DNA of 24,205 nt from Methylophaga sp. GTDB lineage: Bacteria; Pseudomonadota; Gammaproteobacteria; Nitrosococcales; Methylophagaceae. A program made the translations under genes and the position numbers. Positions 5,677 through 19,350 of the stretch are shown here, piece by piece (position 1 is the first letter of the stretch; the number at the start of each line of letters is the position of its first letter). Under the pieces are notes generated by a model. That model was given only the letters and a program-made list of their open reading frames with translations, searched no databases and was not told where the DNA came from. The stretch covers positions 1-24,205 of the forward strand of contig JABURN010000095.1 of NCBI GenBank assembly GCA_014762585.1, in the 5' to 3' direction.

Positions 5677-6891
5677 TCAGACCAGCTGAGTTTTTAAATC
5701 AAGTGATGAGAAGACTTCCCGCGCTATCTGCAGTTCTTCATCAGTGGCTATGACGAGAACTCGAATTGCACTATCAGTGCTGGAAATGTCCGCCGACGGG
5801 TCCCTGTTATCGACATTTTTCTGCTTATCCAGTGACAGTCCGAACGGCTCGAGTCCATCACAGCAAAGCGCACGAATCAGGCTGGCGTTTTCACCGATAC
5901 CGCCGGTGAACACCAGCGCATCGACTCGTCCCAGGGCGACAAGATAAGCGCCGATATATTTGCGAATATGGTAAACAAACATCTCCAGCGCCAGTTTCGC
6001 CTTCACATCATCCTTTTCAGCCCGTTCAATAATCTCACGCATATCGTGGCTGCCGCAGATCGCCTGCAGACCTGAGTCAAAGTTGAGCTGCCGGGCGATC
6101 TCGTCGGCGCTCATACCATGCCTTTGCTGCAGATACAGCGGAATCGAGGCATCCAGATCGCCACTACGGCTGCCCATCATCAAGCCTTCCAGCGGGGTGA
6201 AGCCCATCGAAGTATCCATGCTTTTACCCTGACGAATGGCACAGGCACTGTCACCGTTACCCAGGTGTAAAGTGATGAGATTGAGCTGATCCAGCGGTTT
6301 GTCGAGCATTTCGGCGGCTTTGCCGGCGATATATTGATGTGAACTGCCATGGAAGCCATAACGGCGAATACCAAATTCACTGAACCATTGCTCCGGCACC
6401 GGATAGCGATAGGCATAGTCGGGCATGCTGTGATGAAATGCAGTGTCGAACACCGCGACCTGCGGCAGCTCGTCAAACAGCGCCATACATAAGCGGATTC
6501 CCTGCAGGTTGGCGGGGAGATGCTGGGGGGCCAGATATTCAAGTTCGGCTATTTGCTCGACGAGTGCCGGCGTCAATTGAACCGGCTCGATAAATGCCGT
6601 GCCCCCATGCACGACGCGGTGGCCGATAGCATCCAGTGTCAGGTCTGCCTGTTGCAGTGCTTCAGTCAGATCGCGCTGAACTATCTCAAAAGCTGCCGCA
6701 TGATCTTTAAATTCAGCCGTTTCCTCGCTGTTTTCCGGTTTGTCACCGCTATAGCGCGTCAGTTGGTGTTTGCCGCTTTTCTGAGCAATACCGGTGACCG
6801 CGCCGGCCAGCAGCGTGGTGGCTGCCGGCAAGGCGACGATTTTGAATTTAATCGAAGAACTGCCACAGTTCAGAACCAGAATATGTTTCAT
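5677..6891 (-). CDS. ackA: Acetate kinase
   Basis: This 404-residue cytoplasmic enzyme interconverts acetyl phosphate + ADP and acetate + ATP. Its length and motifs are standard: the N-terminal VLNCGSSSIKFKI (about 5-17), GHRVVHGG, VFDTAFHHSMPDYAYRYPVP, the phosphate-binding GFHGSSHQYI, LHLGNGDSACAI, MGFTPLEGLMMGSRSGD, and the C-terminal FTGGIGENA. It starts 8 bp after the phosphoketolase stop and is surely co-transcribed with it. The pair turns sugar phosphate into acetate with substrate-level ATP synthesis. Phosphotransacetylase could instead use the acetyl phosphate, but no pta gene is in the window. Confidence 0.97.
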   Translation of the reverse strand: MKHILVLNCGSSSIKFKIVALPAATTLLAGAVTGIAQKSGKHQLTRYSGDKPENSEETAEFKDHAAAFEIVQRDLTEALQQADLTLDAIGHRVVHGGTAFIEPVQLTPALVEQIAELEYLAPQHLPANLQGIRLCMALFDELPQVAVFDTAFHHSMPDYAYRYPVPEQWFSEFGIRRYGFHGSSHQYIAGKAAEMLDKPLDQLNLITLHLGNGDSACAIRQGKSMDTSMGFTPLEGLMMGSRSGDLDASIPLYLQQRHGMSADEIARQLNFDSGLQAICGSHDMREIIERAEKDDVKAKLALEMFVYHIRKYIGAYLVALGRVDALVFTGGIGENASLIRALCCDGLEPFGLSLDKQKNVDNRDPSADISSTDSAIRVLVIATDEELQIAREVFSSLDLKTQLV

Positions 6892-6899
6892 CGAAAGCC

Positions 6900-9278
6900 T
6901 TACTGACCCGGCCAGACCCAGTCCGCATATTCGGGTTTATCGACGCCATACTCATAAGCATAGAGGCGACATTCAATCTGCGCATCTTTCAGTTGCTGTT
7001 TGGCATGGGCGCCAATGGTCTGAAGCCTGTCAACACGATCAATCACATCCATGGCCAGACTGAAACGGTCAATTTCATTCTGAATGGCCAGCTCCAGAGG
7101 CGTGTTGATATTGCCTTTCTCTTTATAGCCACGCACATGAATATTTTTGTGATTAGTGCGGCGATAAGCCAGCCGGTGCACCAGCCAGGGGTAACCGTGG
7201 AAATTGAAAATGACCGGCTTATCGCGGGTAAACAGGTTATCGAAATCTTTATCGGTCAGTCCATGCGGATGCTCGGTCTCCGGCAGTAATTTGAACAGAT
7301 CCACCACATTGATAAAGCGCACTTTGAGGTCGGGGAAATGCTCATGCAGCAGTGCCACCGCAGCCAGAGCTTCCTGGGTTGGAATATCGCCGCAGCCGAC
7401 CATGACCACATCCGGTTCCTGACCCTGATCGGAACTGGCCCAGTCCCAGATCCCCAGACCTTTGGTACAGTGTTTCACTGCCTCATCGATGCTCAGAAAC
7501 TGCAGATGTTTCTGTTTATCAGCGACGATCACATTGACGTAGTTATCAGCACGCAGGCAGTGATCGGCGACCGATAGAAGACAGTTGGCATCAGGTGGCA
7601 GGTAAATCCGGCAGACGCTGGGGCTTTTGTTGACCACCAGATCCAGGAAGCCGGGATCCTGATGGGTAAAGCCATTATGATCCTGACGCCAGACAGTGCT
7701 GGTAATCAGCAGGTTGAGAGATGACAGCGGTGCCCGCCAGTCAATCTGGTTGCAGATATCCAGCCACTTGGCGTGCTGGTTGAACATGGAATCAATCACA
7801 TGCACAAAGGCTTCATAGCTGGACAGGAAGCCATGGCGCCCGGTCAGCAGATAGCCCTCAAGCCAGCCTTCCAGCGTATGTTCTGACAGCATTTCCAGCA
7901 CCCGGCCATCGCGAGATAACTGACCGCCGTCTTCGTCTTCCGGGAGCATATCAGCCATCCACAGCTTTTTACTGGCGTCATAGACATCATCGAGCTTGTT
8001 CGAGGTGTTTTCATCAGGCCCGAACACCCGGAAGTTGCTCATGTTCTTCTTCATGATGTCGCGCAGGAAACAACCCAGCGGACGAGTATTTTCAACAGAA
8101 TCCACACCCGGCGAGTTAAGCGCCGCTGCATAATCATAGAAGTCCGGCATCTTCAGGTCTTTGCGCACCAGTCCGCCGTTGGCATGCGGGTTGGCGCTCA
8201 TGCGCCTGTGACCTTTTGGCGCCAGTGCTTTCAGCTCAGGGATCAGGCGCCCGTTATCATCAAACAGCTCATGCGGACGATAGCTGAGCAGCCAGTCTTC
8301 CAGCTGTTTCAGATGCTGGGCATTATCCTTCACACCGGCCAGTGGCACCTGATGTGCGCGCCAGAATCCTTCGACTTTATGGCCGTCAACCTTATCCGGT
8401 CCAGTCCAGCCTTTGGGACTGCGCAGCACGATCATCGGCCAGCGTGGGCGTTCAACTTCATCAGATGCGCGCGCTTTGTCCTGAATCGATTGGATATCGT
8501 TAACACATTGTTCCATGGTCGCCGCCATTTTGGCGTGCATTTCCATCGGATTGCTGCCTTCCACAAAATACGGGGTCCAGCCATAACCTTTGAACAGATC
8601 TTCCAACTCCTGGTGCGAAATGCGTGACAGCAGGGTCGGGTTATTAATCTTGTAACCATTGAGATGCAGCACCGGTAATACGGCGCCGTCGCGTTTCGGG
8701 TTCAAGAACTTATTGGAATGCCAGGACGTCGCCAGTGGGCCGGTTTCAGCTTCACCGTCACCAACCATGACGGTGACCAGCAGGTCCGGGTTATCAAAGG
8801 CGGCGCCAAAGGCATGCGACAGGCTGTAACCCAGCTCACCACCTTCATGAATCGATCCCGGTGTTTCCGGCGTGCAGTGACTGCCGATGCCGCCGGGAAA
8901 GGAAAAGGATTTGAAGAACTGACGCAGTCCGTCAACATCTTCACCTTTATTGGGGTAGATTTCTGAGTAGGTCCCCTCCAGGTAGACCGGTGCCAGTACG
9001 CCCGGAGCACCATGGCCCGGGCCGGCAAGGAAAATGGCGTTGAGATCAAACTTGTTGATCAGCCGGTTCATGTGGATGTAGGTAAAACTCAGGCCCGGGC
9101 TCGCACCCCAGTGTCCCAGCAGGCGGTTTTTGATGTGTGTGGGTTTAAGTTTGCTGCGAAGCAGCGGATTATCCTGCAGGTAAATCATGCCCGCAGCGAG
9201 GTAGTTACAGGCACGCCAGTAGGCATGCATCTGTTCCAGCGTGGTCTTATCGAGCTCAATATCCTGTAAAGCACCCAT
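6900..9278 (-). CDS. xfp: Phosphoketolase (xylulose-5-phosphate/fructose-6-phosphate)
   Basis: This is a 792-residue thiamine diphosphate enzyme of normal family length. It cleaves xylulose 5-phosphate or fructose 6-phosphate with phosphate, giving acetyl phosphate plus glyceraldehyde 3-phosphate or erythrose 4-phosphate. Signatures are EGGELGY (145-151) and [20 protein letters not shown] leading into [13 protein letters not shown] (158-190), the ThDP/metal site. [18 protein letters not shown] near 48-65 is also characteristic. The ATG at 9278 has GAGG upstream. Joined with ackA it forms a carbon-conserving route to C2 units. Such operons occur in methylotrophs that assimilate formaldehyde through the ribulose monophosphate cycle. 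Preference for either substrate cannot be read from sequence alone. Confidence 0.97.
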
Positions 9279-9416: not shown

Positions 9417-10367
9417 TTACCTGGGCAGGGCGATAAAGGTGCCGTCATTCAATCGGGTCATCTCACGCATCAGCACACTGAAGCGATCAGTAGTGCCGGC
9501 TGAAATAAAGCCCACCGCGTGAATTCTGGCCAGCCGCCGGCCCGAGCTTAATACTTTGTTCTGTTCGGTCACTGTTTTAATCACCGCATCATAGCTGCCG
9601 CCCGAATATTCATCACCAAACACATAAATCGAGGTGGTGATATTGGGTTTGGCGTATTTTCTCAGCGCTACCGTCAGCCCTTCAACCGGACTGGAATTGG
9701 ACACCGCATTCCATTTTGAGAAAAGCGAAATGACATTTTTACGGCGGGACGGCGTGTCCGGGATCCAGCGGCCGTCATAACCGGAAATCAGAGATTTACC
9801 CATATCATTCAGCACCTGAAAGCCCTTCACCTCAGGGTGAATATTCAACACATTAATCAGTTCAGTTGAGACCGATCCCCAGATGCTTTTCATACTGCCC
9901 GAGGTATCAACGATAAACACGACGTAGTCGCTGTCGACCGGGATACCGCCTACCTCATCATCACGTTCGCTGACTGGAGGCCGTGGTGTGCTCAATGAAG
10001 CCTGTTTCAGACGTTCCTCAACAAGACTCAGCCCCTCGACGGATTCGTTCATGGTCTCAGCTTGTTTCTCAAGCGTTTTGAGCTCCTGCTGTAAGGCAGA
10101 TGAAGCCTGCTTGATCGACGCTTTCTGATCCGAGAGCGATTCCAGTGCCGCCAAATCGTCATGCAGGGTCTGTTCAATTTCTGTGACCGAATTCTGCAGC
10201 GACAATAGTGAGGCCAGCAGCGCGCTGACTTCATCGGCACCAGCCTGGCTACGGTCGATATCGGTTTTGGAAATCAGGATTAGCATGACCACCGCGCCGA
10301 AGCCGCAGGAAATCACATCCAGGAAGGACAGGCTGAAAATATCGAGGCCTCTGCTACGTCGTTTCAT
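9417..10367 (-). CDS. VWA-domain protein with MotB/ExbD-like N-terminal helix (paralogue 2)
   Basis: This 316-residue protein has a basic cytoplasmic tail, one N-terminal membrane helix (about 11-33) with the motif FLDVISCGFGAVVMLI and Asp17 at its start, a coiled-coil stretch (about 45-125), and a VWA domain (about 146-316). The metal site is DTSGS (154-158) with SSP near 225 and GDEYS near 251. Asp at the entrance of a single helix followed by a periplasmic domain is the arrangement of MotB, ExbD and TolR, where the Asp carries protons. The neighbouring gene encodes a MotA/TolQ-type partner. Its ATG overlaps the previous stop (ATGA). It is the last gene of the eight-gene operon. Its role in a proton-driven complex is inferred. 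Confidence 0.85.
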   Translation of the reverse strand: MKRRSRGLDIFSLSFLDVISCGFGAVVMLILISKTDIDRSQAGADEVSALLASLLSLQNSVTEIEQTLHDDLAALESLSDQKASIKQASSALQQELKTLEKQAETMNESVEGLSLVEERLKQASLSTPRPPVSERDDEVGGIPVDSDYVVFIVDTSGSMKSIWGSVSTELINVLNIHPEVKGFQVLNDMGKSLISGYDGRWIPDTPSRRKNVISLFSKWNAVSNSSPVEGLTVALRKYAKPNITTSIYVFGDEYSGGSYDAVIKTVTEQNKVLSSGRRLARIHAVGFISAGTTDRFSVLMREMTRLNDGTFIALPR

Positions 10368-11425
10368 GGCCAGTTACTCGCCGGGCTGATCACAATGCCG
10401 CGCTGGCTGGCAGCCCACAGCCAGTATTGGTAGGCCGCTTCCGGATCGCCTTCAATCGGCAGCAGAATCACATCCACCTGGGAACCAAAGCTGCCACTTT
10501 CTTTGATGGTCTGCTGGAACAGCCGCTTACGACATTCACCACTGATGGTTTTCGCCGTGCCGGTCAGCGAACTGCAGTCTGAGAATGGGTTCAGGCTCTT
10601 AAAGCGGGACTCACCCTGGGTCGGCAGACCATCGGTAATGACATAGACATTACTGGGTGAAAAGCTTTTGATGGCGTTCAGACCTTTCTGCAGATTGGTA
10701 GCCCCGGTTGGCACCAGACCACTGGCTTCGCGGATGATGCTACCGGCTGACTCACTGCTGGCACTCATCCAGCCCTTGCCGCCCAGCTGTTTTGCCTCTT
10801 CATTGTAGGCCATTACCAGCACCTCACTGTTTTGCGGCAGTCTTGCCAGCATCCAGCTTAGAACTCGCTGGGTTCGCTGCCACTTGGGGGCCTTGAGCTT
10901 GTTCTGATCGCTGCCGCTCTTGGTTTTGATGATATCGATCAGTTTTTCATTGGTCATGGAGGCGCTGGCATCCAATAAGATGGCAATCCTGCTGCCCTCG
11001 ATCTTCAGCCCCAGCAAATACTGCTCTTGATTGACCTGACGGGTTTCAACCAGATCTTGTTTCTCTGGCACCTTGATGCGGGTGATACTCTGTTTCAGTT
11101 CATCCAGGGTTGCGCTGGCGGAGTCAAAAGCCTCATTTTTGGCCTGCAAATCAGCCTGTTGTGAAGACAGGCTCTGTCGCAGACTGGCGATATCGATGTT
11201 TTCCTGTTGCAGCTGCTGGCGGATCTCATCCAGACGCTGTTGTGATTCATCTCTGGCTTGTTTCAGCTGGCTGATGTCGTTTTTGAGGTTCTCAATTTCG
11301 GCCGGGGCTTCATCCACGCTCTGCTTGACCAGCATAAATACCAGGATCACCGCGCCCAGCCCGCAGGACATGATGTCCAGAAAGGCAAGGCTTGATCCTT
11401 CAGCGCGACGCGGTTTATGTGCCAA
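10364..11425 (-). CDS. VWA-domain protein with MotB/ExbD-like N-terminal helix (paralogue 1)
   Basis: This 353-residue protein has the same plan as the next gene: basic tail, N-terminal helix (about 12-34) with FLDIMSCGLGAVILVFM and Asp17, and a long heptad-like Gln/Leu/Asp-rich coiled coil (about 42-118). A VWA domain follows (about 144-353) with metal-site DASAS (152-156), TGATN (about 240-244) and ITDGLPT (263-269), so the MIDAS looks complete. Two cysteines (SDCSSL and GECRKR) may form a disulfide if the domain is periplasmic. It lies 6 bp after the MotA/TolQ-type gene and overlaps the next gene by 4 bp. The Asp17 motif is shared almost exactly with paralogue 2, suggesting that the two form a heterodimer inside one channel. 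Confidence 0.85.
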   Translation of the reverse strand: MAHKPRRAEGSSLAFLDIMSCGLGAVILVFMLVKQSVDEAPAEIENLKNDISQLKQARDESQQRLDEIRQQLQQENIDIASLRQSLSSQQADLQAKNEAFDSASATLDELKQSITRIKVPEKQDLVETRQVNQEQYLLGLKIEGSRIAILLDASASMTNEKLIDIIKTKSGSDQNKLKAPKWQRTQRVLSWMLARLPQNSEVLVMAYNEEAKQLGGKGWMSASSESAGSIIREASGLVPTGATNLQKGLNAIKSFSPSNVYVITDGLPTQGESRFKSLNPFSDCSSLTGTAKTISGECRKRLFQQTIKESGSFGSQVDVILLPIEGDPEAAYQYWLWAASQRGIVISPASNWP

Positions 11426-11431
11426 GACTTA

Positions 11432-12214
11432 TCACCGGATGCGACGCAGCAGAAACCTGTCGCAGTATTCCTGGGTATCGACAACCTGGCTGTCCTGCAG
11501 GCGTTGTAGCTGGTGGAACAGAAACATCAGAAAGATACTGATTAACAGGGCAACCAGGGTGGAGTTAAAGGCAATACCGAGACTGTCAGTCATACCGGCG
11601 ATATCACCTGCCAGCGCTTCATCGGCCTGAGACAGCGCCTGACCGATACCGCGTACCGTGCCGATAAAACCTATCGATGGAATCGCCCAGATGAGATAGC
11701 GGATCATGGTGTTTTCGGAATCCTGCTTGACCGCGATTGCTTCCAGGTTGCTCTCGATTGCGTCTGACAGATTCTGAACATTATCCGTAGAGCTGTAGCG
11801 CCATAGAGCTGAACGCAGCGTCTGTACCAGCGGTGAATGACGGCAGTCTTCGGGAATATCATTATCCAGTCGCTGAATAATACCGTTGACGTCAAGATCA
11901 TGGCGGGCATTAGTCTCTTCACTGTTTTCTATACGGACGTCTTCAATCAGATCCACATTGTAGAGATACTTGGTTTTGAGGATCTCGCGATAAGCGCTGC
12001 CAATCAGAAAGCAGCCCCACAGCAGCAGGATGAAGCAGATCTGTTGTTCATAATCCTTGATTAGTACCACGATATCGCGTGGTGCAGATTGTCCCTGCGC
12101 CGCGGCTTCTGCCATTAACTGTGCCGCTTCGGGCCGGACATAGGCGATAAACAGCATATGCACCACAATCACCGACACCACCAGCGCGGCGAAATTTTTC
12201 AGTGTTTCGTTCAT
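11432..12214 (-). CDS. MotA/TolQ/ExbB-family proton channel protein
   Basis: This 260-residue inner-membrane protein has hydrophobic helices near 6-26, 58-75, 170-193 and 208-236 and a cytoplasmic loop between the second and third. The last two helices carry the family core: IPSIGFIGTVRGIGQAL (178-194) and GMTDSLGIAFNSTLVALLIS (207-226), comparable to the LGLIGTV and small-residue/Thr helices of ExbB and TolQ. Family members form a pentamer around a dimer of Asp-bearing helices and convert proton flow into motion. The two downstream VWA proteins supply such helices. It starts 2 bp after the 46-residue peptide stop. It is not TolQ or ExbB proper, because tolRAB, exbD or tonB are absent. Confidence 0.87.
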   Translation of the reverse strand: MNETLKNFAALVVSVIVVHMLFIAYVRPEAAQLMAEAAAQGQSAPRDIVVLIKDYEQQICFILLLWGCFLIGSAYREILKTKYLYNVDLIEDVRIENSEETNARHDLDVNGIIQRLDNDIPEDCRHSPLVQTLRSALWRYSSTDNVQNLSDAIESNLEAIAVKQDSENTMIRYLIWAIPSIGFIGTVRGIGQALSQADEALAGDIAGMTDSLGIAFNSTLVALLISIFLMFLFHQLQRLQDSQVVDTQEYCDRFLLRRIR

Positions 12215-12216
12215 GT

Positions 12217-12357
12217 TCAGATATCCACCGGAAAGGACACGGGCGAGTTAAGACTGATGACCGGTTTACCGGCATAGACCTTGTGCGCGGTAAAGCCAAT
12301 GATTAACAGCAGCAGGACAGCGCCCAGCAGCGCCCCAAATTTTTTAACGCGTGACAT
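12217..12357 (-). CDS. 46-residue single-helix membrane peptide
   Basis: This tiny gene is wedged between the PEGA/FGE-like gene (10 bp upstream) and the proton channel gene (2 bp downstream). The peptide starts MSRVKKFGALLGAVLLLLII and ends SLNSPVSFPVDI, giving a basic N-tail, one membrane helix (about 7-25) and a short polar C-tail on the far side (or a signal-peptide-like cut after VYA). GAGGGG lies 6 bases before the chosen ATG at 12357. Another in-frame ATG at 12363 directly abuts that site and is less likely. I recognise no family. Its position suggests an accessory subunit or assembly factor of the channel. Confidence 0.75.
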   Translation of the reverse strand: MSRVKKFGALLGAVLLLLIIGFTAHKVYAGKPVISLNSPVSFPVDI

Positions 12358-12367
12358 TGTCATCCCC

Positions 12368-14365
12368 TCAATATACAAATCGACCCAGCCTGAAACCGAG
12401 TGTCTCGGACCCCTCACTCTTGCCGTCACGATAGGAAGCGCGAAGCTCGGTTAAAGAACCTGAGCGCCAGTTGGCGCCTTTAATCACACGGCTGGTGGTG
12501 AGGCTGGTATCAAGCTCGTGCGGTTGAGCCGTGCTCGTGGTCGGTGGTATCAGTGTATAGGCATCGTGAGTCCACTCACTGACATTGCCGCCCATATCAA
12601 ACAGCCCCGACAGCTCGCGCTGCATCGACATGACCGGTGCCACCCCGGCATAAGCATCATCATAGCGCGGCACATAAACCGGCACACTGCCTTTGGTCGA
12701 GACATCAGCGATATTGGCGGCATTTTTAGGAATCGTCTGGCTGTCGCCCCAGACAAAGCGGCTTTGCTCCCCTCTGCCAGCTTTTCTGGCAAGCCATTCC
12801 CATTCGGCCTCGGTCAGTAAGCGATAGCCATCGGCGCGGGGGTTAACGCCTGTAAGATTGTTGCCGCTGAATTGATATACCGGCTGCAGGTCTTCTTCCC
12901 GGCTCAGCCAGTTGGCATATTGGGCAGCTTCAACCCAGCTCACACCCGTGGCTGGCAGCTGTGGTTGGCCGCTATGGGCCTTATCGAACTGCGCATAGGC
13001 GGCGTTCGTGACTTCGTTGCGTCCGGCATAAAACGGCCGGGTCATGGCGACAGTTCTGATAAATTCATTGGCACGCTGGCCCGGTTCCCCCCGTGGCGCA
13101 CCCATTTTGATCGACCCGCTGGGTTTAAACAGCACCATCTCGCCCCCGGCTTTGGTTTTATAAATGGGCGGGGCAGCGGCAAGCCGAGCTTCGGCTTCCG
13201 GTACCATAACGGCGTGCACCGTCGCTGTGGTACTGGCTTTCGGCGTCACAGTCTGCCTGATTGTCCGGTAGCCAGACGCGCGGATTTCTATCTGATGCGG
13301 AATCGCCATCAGGCGAGTCTCAAAAGGCGTGTCACCTACTTTTTTGCCATTGATAAAGACCTCAGCCGCTTTGCTGGCAGTGACTTCAAGCGTCCCTATT
13401 TCCTGTTTCAGGCTGAAATCAAGATGCCGGGTTTCTTCAGCTTCCAACGTCAACGTCTCTGACTGACTGAAATAGCCGGGCTTTTGGTAACGCAAGACAC
13501 TCTCCTGACCCGCCTTGAGCCGGATCTTGCCCTGTGGATTCACATTGATACCGTTCAGCGTCAGTGTGCCACCAGCAGGTTGCAGATTGACCGTAACCCC
13601 GGCGCTTTTGGCTGCCAGCCGGTAAAGACGGCTCAGTCTGGGTTCAGCCTGGGTCAGTTCAAGCTGCTCTGTACTGGGGTCAAAACCGGCTTTGCTGACT
13701 TCGACCTTGTAAGATCCGCCGACCAGTGACAATGTGAGCGGTGTCTGCCCCTGTGTTTCGCCATCAATGCTCACCGCTGCGCCTTCAGGGCTGCTGTTGA
13801 TTTCAAGCTCGCCCTGAAGCGGCGACAGGTTGGGCATCTTTTCCATGACTTCACCGGGTTTCAGTGCCAGACTCAGAGTTAGTGGCTGGTAATAGGGGTG
13901 GCTGATTTCAATCTGATAGTCTCCCGGCTCAAGCTGCTGTTCGAGCGTATCCGCCACCGCAATCATTGAACCGTTGACAGACCAGCGGGTTTTATTGTCT
14001 TTGATGGGGGAAGTCAACAACAGCCGGGCCGGCAGCGGTTCCAGCACCAACTGAATCACCTTGCCGAAATCCTGGTTGGCAATCGTGCGTGTCTGCGCTT
14101 TATAGCCCGCTGCCCGGGCTTCAATCCCGGCTTTTGCTGTCAGGCTGTAGAGGTGATGATTAATAACCCATGCCAGACCGGAAACGGCTGAAACCTCGGC
14201 CTGGTCGCTGATGCTGGTGGGGAGTACTTCAATACGGCTGGCCTTGGCAATGATCAGCAGACTGACGACGATCAGTACCACCAGCAGGCTGCCGGCGCTC
14301 CAGAGCAAACGGCGACGTCGGCTCTGGCGTTTGGCTTGCAGAACGGCCTGTTTAAATTCGCTCAT
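12368..14365 (-). CDS. Membrane-anchored PEGA-repeat protein with cysteine-free FGE/SUMF-like domain
   Basis: This 665-residue protein has a basic cytoplasmic tail, one membrane helix (about 19-40), then several PEGA-like beta units: about 115-170 (degenerate), 184-245 with SSPEGAAVSIDGETQGQTPL, 256-318 (degenerate) and 324-388 with VFINGKKVGDTPF. A formylglycine-generating-enzyme-like (C-type-lectin-like) domain follows at about 405-665, shown by RNEVTNAAYAQF, GVSWVEAAQYANWLS, YRLLTEAEWEWLARKA, GLFDMGGNVSEWTHDAY, VIKGANWRSG and LGFRLGR. True FGEs use two cysteines in the C-terminal strand region. This protein has no cysteine at all, so it is probably a binding or scaffold domain, not an oxidase. 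It overlaps the preceding gene by 14 bp. Confidence 0.87.
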   Translation of the reverse strand: MSEFKQAVLQAKRQSRRRRLLWSAGSLLVVLIVVSLLIIAKASRIEVLPTSISDQAEVSAVSGLAWVINHHLYSLTAKAGIEARAAGYKAQTRTIANQDFGKVIQLVLEPLPARLLLTSPIKDNKTRWSVNGSMIAVADTLEQQLEPGDYQIEISHPYYQPLTLSLALKPGEVMEKMPNLSPLQGELEINSSPEGAAVSIDGETQGQTPLTLSLVGGSYKVEVSKAGFDPSTEQLELTQAEPRLSRLYRLAAKSAGVTVNLQPAGGTLTLNGINVNPQGKIRLKAGQESVLRYQKPGYFSQSETLTLEAEETRHLDFSLKQEIGTLEVTASKAAEVFINGKKVGDTPFETRLMAIPHQIEIRASGYRTIRQTVTPKASTTATVHAVMVPEAEARLAAAPPIYKTKAGGEMVLFKPSGSIKMGAPRGEPGQRANEFIRTVAMTRPFYAGRNEVTNAAYAQFDKAHSGQPQLPATGVSWVEAAQYANWLSREEDLQPVYQFSGNNLTGVNPRADGYRLLTEAEWEWLARKAGRGEQSRFVWGDSQTIPKNAANIADVSTKGSVPVYVPRYDDAYAGVAPVMSMQRELSGLFDMGGNVSEWTHDAYTLIPPTTSTAQPHELDTSLTTSRVIKGANWRSGSLTELRASYRDGKSEGSETLGFRLGRFVY

Positions 14366-15800
14366 CGGCGATAATACTCACTTGATAAGAAGCCGAATCA
14401 AGGGGGATGTTGACTTCGATGATCTTGGATTTATAACCCTGACGCTTCCCCTCGAACTGATAAGTGCCCGGTTTCAATTCAATCTTTTTGCTACGGGTAG
14501 TACCGACGACACCCACACCGCGCACTGAGATGTCGGTTTCCCCGTCGGAAATCACTTCCACCGTGACTGCTTTGTTCACGACATTGATGCTGTCACGCAG
14601 TTTTTTAGCGATCGCATTGAGCGAAGGGCTGGCCTCGCGCACCGACTCTGCCTGAATCAATGCAATGTCAGCCTTGGATTTAACCAGATCATTGGATAAT
14701 CGATAGGGATTGGCGAGCAGCGCCTGTATTTGCTGCTGTAATGAGACAATACGCTCGGCCCGCGCCAGATTGTCGCTGATCGCTTTATCAGCAGGCCGTT
14801 GCTGCAGCGCCTGTTTCCATTCTGTTACTGCAGTTTGCCAGTTATCGGCCTGTTGCGCCTCTTGCGCGGCGGCAACGCTCGACGCATAAACAAGACGGGA
14901 TTCAAGTTCAGCTATCGCTGCTGCCAGCTGCTGGTTTTCCGTGCGGTCGGGATTAAGTTGTCTGGCCTGATTAAGCTGCGCTTTAGCTGTGCTCAGATCT
15001 TGAGAATCAATGGCATCATAGCCCCGTGCAATATGCTGATCGTAGCGATTGGCTGCGAGCTGGCTTTGCAGCGAGGCGGCACGTTGTTGCATGGCTTCCC
15101 GCTCACTGTCGATCTGCAACAGCTTGTTGATCAGCCTCAGTTCCTCGGAGGGATTATTTTCCGCCCGCGCCACAGCGATGGCTTTTTCCAGCCAGGCGAG
15201 CTGTGGGATCAGTTCGATTTTCTCTGACAGCTGCTGTGCAGCTTGATCCCCGGCCTGATGTATCAGAGCATTGTCGATTTCAAGGCGGGCGCGGTTGTAA
15301 TTAAGCGCGTCATAAGCCTGCTGGGCCTGTTGCATGGCTTCGGTGAAGGCCTGACGACTGTTTTCAATCGTAGTTTCGGCCAGCATATTGAGCGCTTTCA
15401 TCGCGCTGTCGGCTTTGGCATAGTCACCGGCTGAAAAGGCCTCAATGGCGGCGGCTTCATCCTGCTGCAGTCGATCGGCCAGCGCTTCATCCCAGCGTTT
15501 GATATCTATCTGCTCAAGCTGCGGTTTCAGTTGATTCTGATAATGCGCGTAGGCCTCAAGATAACGCTGTCTGGCTTCCTCGTCAGTTGCCGGCGTCTCT
15601 GAAGGGACTGTTAAATCTGATGATGCGACCACTTCGGCATTATCGCCGGCTGAGGGTGCCGTTGTTTCAGGCCAGAGTGAGTGACTGCTGGCATAAAGCA
15701 GCATTGCAGCCACTAAAACAGCGACACTACTGAGGAATATCAGGCGCAGTGTGGAACGGCGCTTTGCCTGTCTGGCCCGGGCTATTTTCTCAGCAAGCAT
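14352..15800 (-). CDS. Membrane-anchored helical-repeat protein with C-terminal PEGA-like unit
   Basis: This 482-residue protein begins MLAEKIARARQAKRRS, then has a membrane helix (about 18-37). A long Ala/Gln/Glu-rich helical region follows (about 60-400) that reads as TPR-like or coiled-coil repeats, for example WQTAVTEWKQALQQRPADKA. The C-terminal ~70 residues end in a PEGA-like unit (KKIELKPGTYQFEGKRQGYKS). The basic QAKRRS tail resembles the QAKRQS tail of the next gene's product, so both may be inserted in the same way with the bulk in the periplasm. It starts 8 bp after the lipoprotein stop and overlaps the following gene by 14 bp. The function is unknown. It looks like a periplasmic scaffold of the envelope complex. 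Confidence 0.78.
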   Translation of the reverse strand: MLAEKIARARQAKRRSTLRLIFLSSVAVLVAAMLLYASSHSLWPETTAPSAGDNAEVVASSDLTVPSETPATDEEARQRYLEAYAHYQNQLKPQLEQIDIKRWDEALADRLQQDEAAAIEAFSAGDYAKADSAMKALNMLAETTIENSRQAFTEAMQQAQQAYDALNYNRARLEIDNALIHQAGDQAAQQLSEKIELIPQLAWLEKAIAVARAENNPSEELRLINKLLQIDSEREAMQQRAASLQSQLAANRYDQHIARGYDAIDSQDLSTAKAQLNQARQLNPDRTENQQLAAAIAELESRLVYASSVAAAQEAQQADNWQTAVTEWKQALQQRPADKAISDNLARAERIVSLQQQIQALLANPYRLSNDLVKSKADIALIQAESVREASPSLNAIAKKLRDSINVVNKAVTVEVISDGETDISVRGVGVVGTTRSKKIELKPGTYQFEGKRQGYKSKIIEVNIPLDSASYQVSIIADERI

Positions 15801-15808
15801 GGACGGGC

Positions 15809-17044
15809 CTAAAGCTGAGTTTCAGGGGTTGCCTCAAGCTCATACATTTGTGCCATGAAAGCGCGCCACTGCTGAAACTGTTCTTCGACATCACCGGTGA
15901 GTTCAACGGTTTTTTCCTCAAAGCTGATGACTTGCGGTGACATTTCCAGGTTGACCGATTCACCGAGTTCATTAATTGCATCCTGATGCATCTTGGCTTC
16001 TTCGCGTGAGGTGAAGCCACTGTTAATCAGTACTGCGCCACCGACACCGGCAGCGACGGCAGCGATATCGGCACCGATATTATTATCGTAGGGCTCGCCG
16101 GAGGCCGCAGCAGCAATAGCAGCTGCTACCAGCAGCACGCCGCCGGCAATTTTCATCCAGCTTTTGGTTTTGGCTTCTTTTCTGAGCTGCATTTCGGTGA
16201 AGCTGGCTTTTTGCCACACCAGGTAACTGTCTTCCATCTGCTGACTGAAGCCACTGTAATCCTGCTGCAGATTATCAATAAACAATTGCTCGCGAACCCG
16301 GACTGATTTGACCCGCTGGAACAAGGGATCGGCATCGCTGGGCATGGCGGTCACCGTCATCGGTTGCGCATCCGTGTTGAGATAAGGCAGGAAAGCCTGT
16401 TCATTGAAGCTGGCGCCGAAGCGCAGATCAGCAATCTGTTTCAGTTCGGCGAGGCGACGCTGCTGCTGTTCCAGCAGAACGGCTACAATCCGGTTGGCGG
16501 CCTCTTCAAAGGCCGGGTCGTAGGCATCTTTACCTTCATTTCTGGGATTTTTATAGAAGCCTTCCGAGACTTCATGTTCGATATTTTCATCCAGCCACTG
16601 CTTGCCACTGATATCCACGACCTCCATATCGAATTCCAGATCCATACCGTTGGATTCGACAATCTCACCCAGCACATACAAATCACCGGATGCGGTCTTA
16701 TCCGGGGTGACCCTTACGGCGCCGAACTTGCCGGTGTCTTCCAGTGCCTGTTTCAGTTTGTAGGCAAAGCGGTTGGCTTCAGCGCGGCGCAGTTCGGGCC
16801 AGATACCTTCTTCTTCATAATTGGCTTCATCTTCAGACAGGCCAGGGGAAAAGGCCGGGATAATCACATCCAATCTGGGGCCGCTGTAAGTGACTTCGCT
16901 GGCTTGTTCTTCAAAGCTTGAAGCCAGTTGCGGGCCGGTGGCGGTGGGTTTGCTCTGGCTACCGACACAGGCAGTCAGTGCATGCATCATGATCAGCAGA
17001 TAGACCAGGAGTTTCGAGGGTTGTCTGAAACGATCAATGTTCAA
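15809..17044 (-). CDS. Lipoprotein of the envelope operon, CsgG/PelC-like N-terminal region suspected
   Basis: This 411-residue protein has a lipoprotein signal: MNIDRFRQPSKLLVYLLIMM then ALTAC with the lipidated cysteine at 26. Residues about 55-190 (LDVIIPAFSPGL ... FAYKLKQALEDTGKFGAVRV ... GDLYVLGEIVES) have the alternating strand/helix pattern of small outer-membrane lipoprotein folds such as CsgG, PelC or LpoB; this is a resemblance, not a firm match. Two hydrophobic Gly/Ala-rich stretches (about 297-315 and 324-343) suggest a membrane-interacting hairpin. Residue 27 is Val and 28 Gly, so there is no Asp+2 inner-membrane retention signal and outer-membrane sorting is plausible. It overlaps the preceding gene by 11 bp. 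Confidence 0.75.
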   Translation of the reverse strand: MNIDRFRQPSKLLVYLLIMMHALTACVGSQSKPTATGPQLASSFEEQASEVTYSGPRLDVIIPAFSPGLSEDEANYEEEGIWPELRRAEANRFAYKLKQALEDTGKFGAVRVTPDKTASGDLYVLGEIVESNGMDLEFDMEVVDISGKQWLDENIEHEVSEGFYKNPRNEGKDAYDPAFEEAANRIVAVLLEQQQRRLAELKQIADLRFGASFNEQAFLPYLNTDAQPMTVTAMPSDADPLFQRVKSVRVREQLFIDNLQQDYSGFSQQMEDSYLVWQKASFTEMQLRKEAKTKSWMKIAGGVLLVAAAIAAAASGEPYDNNIGADIAAVAAGVGGAVLINSGFTSREEAKMHQDAINELGESVNLEMSPQVISFEEKTVELTGDVEEQFQQWRAFMAQMYELEATPETQL

Positions 17045-17609
17045 CGTTCATTCCTTTGTATTTACGGTATTCATTCCACAGCTTTTTGCGGATTTCAGGG
17101 TCGGTTTCTGCTTCCGCTGCAATCCGGATCTGCGCAGCAATGGCGTCGTCATTTTCTGCCGGAGGAATATCTTCAGGGATTTTGCCATTGTCAGCCGGAC
17201 CACTGAGGACTGACTCGGAGGTCTCTTCGTCGCTCAGCTCTGAGCTGGTATCGCTCGCTGCCACAGCATCCTGACCGGTTTCCGCTTCAGTACCCTGCAT
17301 AGCGTCACTGGCAGCGGACTCAGCGCCCGAACTGCCATTATTGGCGGCTGCAGCATGGCCGCTTGATGATGAGCTGCTGTTGACGGACAGATTACAGTCC
17401 TCGAATTTTTTCAGCGATTCATAAAAGGCCTGCTCCATCAGCGCCAGCTTTTCAGCTCGGGTCAGTTCTGGATTATCCTGGTAGTTGATACCCATAACCT
17501 CGCAGTCATCCTTTGCTTCCTCAGCCTGTGAATTATCGGCAGAGACGGCACTGGCAACTAACAGGCTCAGAAAAGCAGAATTTTTCAGCCAGGAGACAAC
17601 AGTTTTCAT
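17034..17609 (-). CDS. Secreted Ser/Ala-rich acidic protein, first gene of the envelope operon
   Basis: This 191-residue protein has a signal peptide MKTVVSWLKNSAFLSLLVAS and a likely cut after AVSA (residue 24). The mature N-terminal part holds two cysteines (36 and 72) that may pair around a short helical domain. A low-complexity Ser/Ala/Gly/Glu linker follows (about 76-140), then a charged C-terminal helix (about 154-187). I do not recognise it. The frame is open further upstream, but the ATG at 17609 begins the signal peptide and has AGAGGA about 9 bases before it. The stop overlaps the lipoprotein start by 11 bp, tying it to the operon. A 250-bp non-coding gap upstream should hold the operon promoter; I found only weak candidates there. 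Confidence 0.75.
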   Translation of the reverse strand: MKTVVSWLKNSAFLSLLVASAVSADNSQAEEAKDDCEVMGINYQDNPELTRAEKLALMEQAFYESLKKFEDCNLSVNSSSSSSGHAAAANNGSSGAESAASDAMQGTEAETGQDAVAASDTSSELSDEETSESVLSGPADNGKIPEDIPPAENDDAIAAQIRIAAEAETDPEIRKKLWNEYRKYKGMNVEH

Positions 17610-17859: not shown

Positions 17860-19350
17860 CTACGAGGCGCTGGCGACGGTGTCACTGACCTGACTGTCAG
17901 GCGGCAGCCATTTCATACAGCAATTCCGGCCATGGCGTTTAGCCTCATACAGTGCTTCATCCGCAAAGCGGATGAGTTCATCACCCTGCATACCTGTCAG
18001 CCAGCTACAGCTTCCCAGGCTGATGGTTAGAGCCCGGTTTGGCCAATCGGCAAGTTCTACTGCGCTTCGTAAGCGCTCAGCGACTTCCAGCGCGGTGACA
18101 CGGTCGGTATCGGGTAACAAGATAGCGAATTCCTCACCACCGAAGCGGGTAACGACATCATAAGCACGGCATTCTCGCTTCAGGATATCGGCCAGCATTT
18201 TCAGTGCCCGGTCTCCCTCGGGATGACCGAAGCTGTCGTTGTAGCTTTTGAAGAAATCGACATCCAGGATAATGACAGAAAGCTTGCCGTCTTCTGCTCG
18301 CCTTGTCCTATGCAGTTCTCTTTCCAGTACCGTGTTGAGGACGCGGCGGTTACCCAGTGCGGTCAGCGGATCGGTCACGCTTTGTTCCAGCAGACTGACA
18401 TTGGCAGCTTCCAGTTTAACCTGGGTGTCTCTGAGCAGCTGGTTCTGCTTTTCGGCCTTATAAAGCAGATCGCTGATTTGACCCTGAGCCAGGCGTAAAT
18501 CAGAGATATCAAGAATCTGCGAAATAAAGTTTTCGACAGAGCCATCCTGTTTACGCACCACGGCGACTGACAGCAGTGCATAAACAATATGACCGTCTTT
18601 ATGGCGATAGCGTTTTTCGATCTGGTAGTTGTCGCGCTGACCAGAAATGACCTGCTTGAATAGTGACAGGTCTTTTTCCAGATCTTCTTCCAGTGTGATG
18701 TCCTGAAAGGTCAGATTCAGTAATTCATTTTCTGCATAGCCGAGAATTTGGCAAAGCTTGTGATTGACCTGTAACCAAAGGCCATTGGTCGCGACAATCG
18801 CCATACCGATGCCGGCATGGTGGAAGTTGTTGCTGAATGCCTGTTCGCTTTTACGCAGCTGCTCTTCGCGATTTTTCTGCTCGCTGATATCCAGATGGGT
18901 ACCGTACATCATCAGCGGCTGGCCATCATCGCCACGACTGAAGATTTTCCCCCGGTCCAGTACCCACACCCAATGACCGTCTTTATGACGCATACGGCAC
19001 TCGACATCATAAAACTCTGCTTCACCGGTAAAGCAGGCCTGCAAGGCATTATTGGACTTTTGCAGATCGTCGGGATGGGCAAGACTGAGCCAGGTCTCAA
19101 TAGAGATTGGTTCCAGTTCTTCCAACCGGTATCCCAGAATTTCTGCCCAGCGCTCGTTGAATCGGGTTTCACCAGTCTGAACATTCCACTCCCAGGTACC
19201 GACATTCGTGCCTTCAATAAAGGCCTGGTATTTCTGCCTGGTTTCCAGCAACTCGGCCAGCTCGTGCTCGCTGAGTTGGGCTGGGTGGTCTTGTTCCGGA
19301 TGATTCATCTGCAGCTGTTCTGAGCCGGTCTTTCCTGTTGAGATCGACAA
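17860..19350 (-). CDS. PAS-PAS-GGDEF diguanylate cyclase
   Basis: This soluble protein of up to 496 residues has two PAS/PAC sensor units (about 38-158 and 165-288), a coiled-coil linker (about 288-325), and a GGDEF domain. The active-site GGEEF is at 404-408, and the metal/GTP segment LDVDFFKSYNDSFGH starts at 362. An inhibitory RxxD site (RAYD, 395-398) sits five residues before GGEEF, so product inhibition by cyclic di-GMP is likely. The first PAS contains W-rich TWEWNVQTGETRFNERW, typical of PAS_3. The longest frame starts with TTG at 19350 and no clear ribosome site. The ATG at 19308 (482 residues) is an alternative that loses no domain. It is co-oriented with the envelope operon but 250 bp away. 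Confidence 0.93.
   Translation of the reverse strand: MSISTGKTGSEQLQMNHPEQDHPAQLSEHELAELLETRQKYQAFIEGTNVGTWEWNVQTGETRFNERWAEILGYRLEELEPISIETWLSLAHPDDLQKSNNALQACFTGEAEFYDVECRMRHKDGHWVWVLDRGKIFSRGDDGQPLMMYGTHLDISEQKNREEQLRKSEQAFSNNFHHAGIGMAIVATNGLWLQVNHKLCQILGYAENELLNLTFQDITLEEDLEKDLSLFKQVISGQRDNYQIEKRYRHKDGHIVYALLSVAVVRKQDGSVENFISQILDISDLRLAQGQISDLLYKAEKQNQLLRDTQVKLEAANVSLLEQSVTDPLTALGNRRVLNTVLERELHRTRRAEDGKLSVIILDVDFFKSYNDSFGHPEGDRALKMLADILKRECRAYDVVTRFGGEEFAILLPDTDRVTALEVAERLRSAVELADWPNRALTISLGSCSWLTGMQGDELIRFADEALYEAKRHGRNCCMKWLPPDSQVSDTVASAS

Follow-up and report, generated by a model that had tools for sequence, protein, structure and literature searches.

The 24,205-nucleotide window analysed here, contig JABURN010000095.1 of Methylophaga sp., carries eight tightly packed minus-strand genes at positions 9417-17609. 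They form a conserved unit that is found in many marine and sediment bacteria. The best explanation of this gene set, to which we give a probability of about 0.62, is a 5:2 ion motor with a heterodimeric VWA axle that works on a trans-envelope scaffold. The core of such a motor was already predicted in print; as far as we searched, neither the machine with its eight parts nor the tail peptide has been described. The genes are called here by working names coined in this analysis (SEC, LIP, HRP, FGE, SMP, CHN, VWA and VWB, in order of transcription). Three neighbouring pairs overlap, by 4, 14 and 11 bp, and the other four are 6, 2, 10 and 8 bp apart, so the listing of open reading frames (ORFs) and the junctions confirm the packed operon of the original prediction, an earlier reading of the same window. 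The eight genes are:

17034-17609, minus strand: SEC, an exported Ser-rich protein; an ORF of 191 amino acids from ATG, without a Pfam family.
15809-17044, minus strand: LIP, a lipoprotein with lipobox LTAC and a domain of the FlgT/PelC/CsgG/TolB-N type at residues ~50-199.
14352-15800, minus strand: HRP, a TPR protein with one N-terminal transmembrane helix and a TPR-type superhelix at residues ~73-408.
12368-14365, minus strand: FGE, a PEGA/FGE-like protein with an N-terminal transmembrane helix, PEGA repeats and a C-terminal FGE-like domain.
12217-12357, minus strand: SMP, a small peptide of 46 amino acids; an ORF ending in FPVDI.
11432-12214, minus strand: CHN, a MotA/TolQ/ExbB-type channel (PF01618) with four hydrophobic segments and Thr186 and Thr219.
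10364-11425, minus strand: VWA, with a TTG start, a transmembrane helix with a pore Asp, a coiled coil and a VWA domain.
9417-10367, minus strand: VWB, with a transmembrane helix with pore Asp17, a coiled coil and a VWA-type domain.

A contig scan returned at least 590 relatives of the channel. The best 80 loci were kept with flanks of up to 10 kb and searched on both strands with profiles built from those same loci. SMP was scored as present wherever FGE and CHN share a locus, since its tail was found in all 78 such loci, and the synteny counts exclude L001-L030 because of their short flanks. The complete eight-gene set was found in 55 of these best 80 loci. Of the 25 incomplete ones, 23 are truncated by a contig end, and in the other two (L068 and L108) SEC alone was undetected and a contig end is no explanation. 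The genes share a single order and strand in 53 of the 55 complete loci, one of which has an extra HRP piece. Three rearranged loci were seen: in L056, SEC-LIP-HRP is placed after VWB on the opposite strand; in L058, SEC-LIP-HRP-VWA-VWB is on the strand opposite FGE-SMP-CHN; and L061 resembles L056 as far as its contig reaches. These three were rejected as gene-loss exceptions because they proved to be rearranged sets once both strands were searched.

The same was seen in genomes of the class with strong channel matches, 31 in number (see below), of which 17 were taken with wide flanks; G213 needed a second contig. The cluster surrounds the channel in 16 of the 17, with some gene undetected in three of these. 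The genes undetected in wide-flank loci were SEC (L129), LIP (L132) and SEC with VWB (L120, a short contig), and CHN is placed after VWB in L132 and L135. In G213 (L130) the channel is on one contig, VWB, VWA, FGE, HRP and SEC are on another, and LIP was undetected. The retention of the set after rearrangement (L056, L058, L061, L132 and L135) and across a contig split (G213) supports one conserved unit, as had been proposed.

The channel and the VWA-type proteins also occur together across genomes. The class was sampled evenly, and the 369 genomes taken were searched at a limit of E<=1e-5. A channel match was found in 41 genomes and a VWA/VWB-family match in 34, all of them among the 41, so homologues of the two parts do co-occur. 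Near-full-length channels (E<=1.8e-46) are present in 31 genomes, and 31/31 have a VWA-family match of 9.1e-16 or better, with a cut that was set after the fact because the gap between the family and its sister family is narrow on the VWA side. The remaining VWA-family genomes (G032, G035 and G090) have weak channel matches.

CHN belongs to the MotA/TolQ/ExbB family, as predicted, with a score of 51 bits against PF01618 (MotA_ExbB; cut-off 22.9). Thr186 and Thr219, which we take to be the pore-lining threonines, are invariant (17/17). Their patterns were found in 79 and 78 of the 80 loci, and both residues can be aligned to the genome's own TolQ-like protein. The loop motif KDYEQE is conserved. 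Hydropathy gives apparently four membrane segments, the third weaker, a topology presumably nearer to MotA than to TolQ. The channel profile had no match among PDB chains at E<=0.01. The source genome (G000, 85.7% complete) has five further PF01618 proteins and, thus, this motor is an additional one.

The two putative axle proteins are also as predicted, each with an Asp in its N-terminal helix, and they are paralogous. VWA matches VWA_2 at 30.5 bits (cut-off 27; E 6e-07). VWB alone falls under the VWA cut-off (Pfam E 0.14), but 7 of the 29 members of its family match VWA_2, and its homology to VWA has a profile-profile probability of 99.8 in hhalign. By these comparisons VWB is a paralogue of VWA. 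Both have one N-terminal transmembrane segment with the motif S/A-F/L-L-D-x-x-S/A-C-G-F/L-G-A; the pore-Asp helix is SLAFLDIMSCGLGA in VWA and, with Asp17, SLSFLDVISCGFGA in VWB. The pore Asp is present in 71/71 ORFs read for each protein, and Asp17 of VWB in all 29 aligned sequences. A VWB that seemed to lack the Asp, and five pore motifs that at first went unread, were set aside as pattern or ORF artefacts; in one VWB ORF, the Asp pattern had picked up a VWA-type motif. The metal (MIDAS) sites of both heads are intact. D152, S154, S156 and D265 of VWA are conserved in 29/29 and T243 is T in 26 and S in 3, while D154, S156, S158, S225 and D252 of VWB are each conserved in 29/29. Across the operon, the Pfam families above cut-off were MotA_ExbB (CHN), VWA_2 (VWA), and PEGA and FGE-sulfatase (FGE), with nothing above cut-off for SEC, LIP, HRP, SMP or VWB. 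No TolR/ExbD/MotB-type domain was found by Pfam in the eight proteins.

A core of this kind has been published. TolQ-like pentamers with heterologous vWA pairs, in which an Asp helix enters the pore, were predicted in 2025 with the backing of AlphaFold3, starting from homologues of an Idiomarina protein (Mol Biol Evol 2025, msaf138; PMC12204202). These TPH-vWA motors have a TolQ-like gene, two different vWA genes, an Asp in the trans-pore helix and no tolR/exbD. The window likewise has a TolQ-like gene adjoining two vWA genes with a transmembrane Asp. By description, its core matches the published one in every feature compared, and it may belong to the same family as the Idiomarina clusters. 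In contrast to the window, section 8 of that paper names no FGE/PEGA, TPR, lipoprotein, secreted or tail-peptide partners (PMC12204202). The machine had been called apparently undescribed, and this fails for the channel and paired vWA proteins, which are in print as a prediction. It stands for the other five parts, the FPVDI tail peptide included, of which no description was found in a search confined to the open-licence PMC literature. The term VWA is absent from the available text of PMC9389320 and PMC12505986.

The motor core was also compared with better known systems. A Zorya-type anti-phage system is highly improbable. Its support consists of weak PADLOC matches of ZorA to CHN (1.9e-4) and of ZorB1 to the transmembrane and coiled-coil part of VWA (2.8e-5). 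ZorC, ZorD and ZorE had no match at E<=0.1 in the eight proteins (for VWA, among the best 25 of 30 matches listed), the axle has VWA heads and not the OmpA-type domain by Pfam, and there are many envelope parts. Since the channel and coiled-coil similarity is weak, Zorya defence was rejected. MotAB and PomAB with the FlgT (H/T) ring share the channel family, the apparently four hydrophobic segments and, in LIP, an FlgT-like fold, but the window has no flagellar genes and its axle heads are VWA, not OmpA-type. The Tol-Pal and Ton systems (TolQR, ExbBD) share the channel family and the pore Thr/Asp chemistry, and the core of LIP resembles the TolB N-domain fold. However, the operon has no TolR/ExbD, TolA/TonB, TolB propeller or Pal by Pfam and NCBIfam, and its axle carries VWA heads.

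The remaining proteins support the trans-envelope parts list of the original prediction, with several corrections. The FGE protein matches PEGA in 4 stretches (119 bits, 6.6e-35) and FGE-sulfatase (116 bits, 3.6e-33), so the FGE-like membrane protein stands as described. What the original prediction could not see is that its C-terminal domain is a non-catalytic, hub-type one. The position of the catalytic Cys pair was set by alignment to SUMF1 and PorK chains. The last 60 residues hold no Cys in 78/78 loci, and the window's FGE protein has none at all. A functional FGE enzyme was rejected because the catalytic pair is missing. HRP has one transmembrane anchor and helical repeats, as predicted, the repeats being of TPR type, but the PEGA domain claimed for it was not found by Pfam; its C-terminus is a transthyretin/PEGA-like beta domain (residues 412-475), transthyretin-like in fold only. 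SEC is Ser-rich, as claimed, and not Cys-rich, having two Cys in its mature part. Its conserved C-terminal segment, DIPxxxNDDxxAxQIRxAAExExDPxxxxxLWNEYRKYKG, recurs across loci.

The inactive FGE fold brings in a second explanation. PorK is described as non-catalytic, with an FGE fold that serves the PorLM motor as a docking hub, and the inactive fold in PorK/GldK is a motor-driven hub (PMC12421860); GldK is part of a moving track (PMC12635249). The operon could, therefore, encode a proteobacterial functional relative of the type IX secretion system (T9SS) and gliding motors, with an FGE-fold hub or track moved for protein export or surface movement. Both PorKLMN/GldKLMN and the window combine a 5:2-type motor with a non-catalytic FGE-fold hub, here proposed from genes. 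The FGE domain is similar to PorK (9mzu, 2.7e-20) and GldK (TIGR03525, 3.8e-22), and shares with PorK the loss of the catalytic Cys (PMC12421860). We consider this relationship unlikely since SUMF1 (2.8e-28) beats PorK. PorK and GldK are outer-membrane lipoproteins, whereas the window's FGE protein is anchored by an N-terminal transmembrane segment and has no lipobox. In addition, the axle protein PorM has Ig-type domains and the window's putative axle has VWA. PorN/GldN, Sov and SprA were not found by Pfam or NCBIfam in the eight proteins, the only part of the genome searched for them. Membership of T9SS itself was rejected because the hub fold is shared but the other defining parts are missing. 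Inactive FGE proteins with N-terminal extensions that include PEGA were noted earlier as OCTIN-related (PMC5915273). A bacterial OCTIN forms periplasmic oligomers (PMC5915273); OCTIN oligomers are disulphide-linked, in contrast to an FGE protein that has no Cys.

LIP is a lipoprotein with lipobox LTAC, as predicted, and its lipobox Cys26 is invariant (29/29). Its FlgT/PelC/CsgG/TolB-N-type domain had been missed. The domain is followed by long helices, of which a hydrophobic pair (residues ~297-345) was modelled at low confidence. The residue at +2 after the lipobox Cys governs the destination of a lipoprotein and, with Val at this position, LIP should go to the outer membrane. Its fold class takes in the ring formers FlgT, PelC and CsgG. 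This could point to motor-energised export or tethering at the outer membrane, with LIP as a CsgG/PelC-like ring or as the lipoprotein moved by a Tol-Pal-like system. Such a role seems improbable, given that the hydrophobic helices are of low confidence, that the genome is already equipped with another, TolQ-like motor protein, and that the window showed neither polysaccharide nor curli genes.

SMP was described earlier as a membrane peptide, but an exported tail peptide is more likely than a membrane subunit. Its ORF lies between FGE and CHN in all 78 loci that hold both, and in each of them it ends in the tail [FMI]-P-x-[DN]-[IMF]-stop. The tails are FPVDI (55), FPTDI (7), FPSNI (5), FPIDI (3), FPGDI (2) and IPYDI (2), with FPSDI, MPTDI, FPTNI and FPVDF seen once each. 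Further clusters have the tail in 17/17, once as IPSDM. In the window's group, SMP begins with a hydrophobic stretch, in many cases has an AxA-like site, and is ~17 residues long in its mature part; it may be a cleaved signal peptide followed by ~17 exported residues. In the window, these putative residues are GKPVISLNSPVSFPVDI. The Woeseiaceae/Pseudomonadales group has a signal-like N-terminus, a long acidic middle and the same tail. By a home-made rule, a site with small residues at -3/-1 is present in 77/78 loci and a strict AxA in 45/78. Across groups SMP keeps its export signal and free C-terminus, the strangest single feature of the cluster.

The tail would be a docking tag. VWA domains, integrin-type included, bind an acidic ligand residue, and this makes the MIDAS of the VWA heads an attractive receptor for it. 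A more speculative proposal, for which the odds are poor but not negligible, is a distinct Pseudomonadota trans-envelope rotary machine with a heterodimeric VWA axle in which the ~17-residue free periplasmic SMP peptide is a moving part. FPVDI would then dock to the MIDAS of a VWA head or to a pocket of FGE and act as a clutch, plug or assembly key.

For the 5:2 ion motor on a trans-envelope scaffold, we propose the following mechanism. Five CHN subunits would form a ring around a heterodimeric axle made of the Asp-bearing helices of one VWA and one VWB. As ions pass the Asp and the Thr rings, the axle would turn or swing, and the coiled coils and VWA heads would transmit this motion into the periplasm. 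The heads would take hold of ligands, of which the FPVDI tail of exported SMP may be one. The FGE-like, PEGA and TPR proteins would be hub and scaffold towards an assembly of LIP, perhaps a ring, at the outer membrane. As a first guess, the function in the cell would be to remodel or move something at the outer membrane, by a logic like that of T9SS/Gld.

Several points weigh against this mechanism. The VWA heads could be sensors instead of force arms, and no outer-membrane barrel or translocon is present in the operon. Seven genomes with channel matches, all weak, have no VWA-family match, and the weakest accepted VWA-family match (9.1e-16) is separated by a narrow gap from the strongest other match (9.4e-15). 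One genome of the same genus (G160) and two of the same family (G002 and G364) have neither a channel nor a VWA match, so the machine is dispensable. The genomes and loci are interrelated and, thus, Fisher values are not probabilities; the best 80 of at least 590 loci are also not a random sample. Since SUMF1 outscores PorK, a special kinship of FGE to PorK is unsupported. Confidence in the LIP model is medium (pLDDT 77), and the helical part is poorly modelled. The LIP fold class also includes the monomeric or non-ring proteins TolB, LptE and PqiC, and the fold alone is therefore no proof of a ring. The SMP tail pattern was widened after exceptions were inspected, and the signal-peptide call came from the home-made rule and not from SignalP. 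Finally, Asn replaces Asp in the tail of 6/78 loci, which weakens the case for a MIDAS-binding Asp.

The possibility of VWA heads as sensors is connected to extra genes in some clades. In one clade CHN and VWA are separated by an extra gene of ~1.1-1.4 kb (e.g. L072:10746-12134), which 22 of the 48 loci examined contain. Of four such genes that were scanned, two have a C-terminal FHA domain; towards the N-terminus the product resembles an actin/Hsp70-type ATPase, a likeness judged by eye only. In 7 loci there are genes of kinase and PP2C type close to the cluster (Pfam was run on L072 only), and VWA and kinase-PEGA genes are also combined in a sister family. These genes would fit a signalling complex in which ligand-binding VWA heads gate an ion channel, with phospho-signalling downstream. 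We regard this as quite unlikely because the signalling genes are outside the window's operon, a sensor has no need of parts that span the envelope, and the same observations are accounted for by a motor under phospho-control. Another addition, a TPR gene directly upstream of SEC (L073:1344-2837 type), occurs in 14 loci of Pseudomonadales-type clusters, with TonB_C found by Pfam in L073 only. The window's operon has none of these clade extensions (FHA insert, kinase, PP2C or TPR-TonB_C).

The sister family is represented by L136 (9395-18949) and L137 (7516-10816). Both have a distant channel and a VWA protein (VWA_2 in both) with the helix ALDLFASA(L/M)GAF, and L136 also carries a kinase-PEGA fusion. 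By eye, distant MotA/TolQ-type channels lie near FHA-like and PP2C-like ORFs in L111, L112, L136, L137 and L138. In L114 (5748-10405, minus strand), a channel is followed by two small single-helix proteins and then an FGE-like protein, also by eye, a possible pairing of channel and FGE.

In a phylum sample, a channel at E<=1e-20 was found in 16 of 398 genomes, 13 of them from one family. The nearest relatives of the window's channel are L032 and L031, the latter from Methylophaga aminisulfidivorans, a cultured species that carries the cluster. The channel tree intermingles rows labelled gamma, alpha and Desulfobacterota, many of them metagenome bins. With labels reduced to gamma or other, it requires 8 changes, of which well-supported branches force at least 5. 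These mixed labels suggest horizontal movement, with the caveat of the many bins. Carriage by mobile elements was rejected because plasmids gave 3 matching records, none covering 80% of the channel. Viral carriage was also rejected; of the two matching loci, one has just the channel gene and the other a distant channel plus two weak VWB matches. An IMG/VR contig, L145 (3001-3771), has a full-length family channel of 40% identity, with no other family genes in its 4961 bases, and is perhaps a mislabelled bacterial contig.

The neighbours of the operon were recognised by eye. Phosphoketolase-like (6900-9278) and acetate kinase-like (5677-6891) genes are directly downstream on the same strand and have no known link to the cluster. 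A PAS/GGDEF-type protein at 17860-19350, on the same strand upstream of SEC, is a possible regulatory neighbour. A promoter and terminator scan gave no more matches than shuffled sequence.

What was published as a prediction of the two-gene type, vWA axles in a channel, becomes with these data a defined machine of eight parts, open to knockout and purification. The data also point to an exported tail peptide that is conserved to its last residues. They suggest that dead FGE folds recur as partners of 5:2 motors outside Bacteroidota, and add to the envelope tasks conceivable for ion-driven 5:2 motors.

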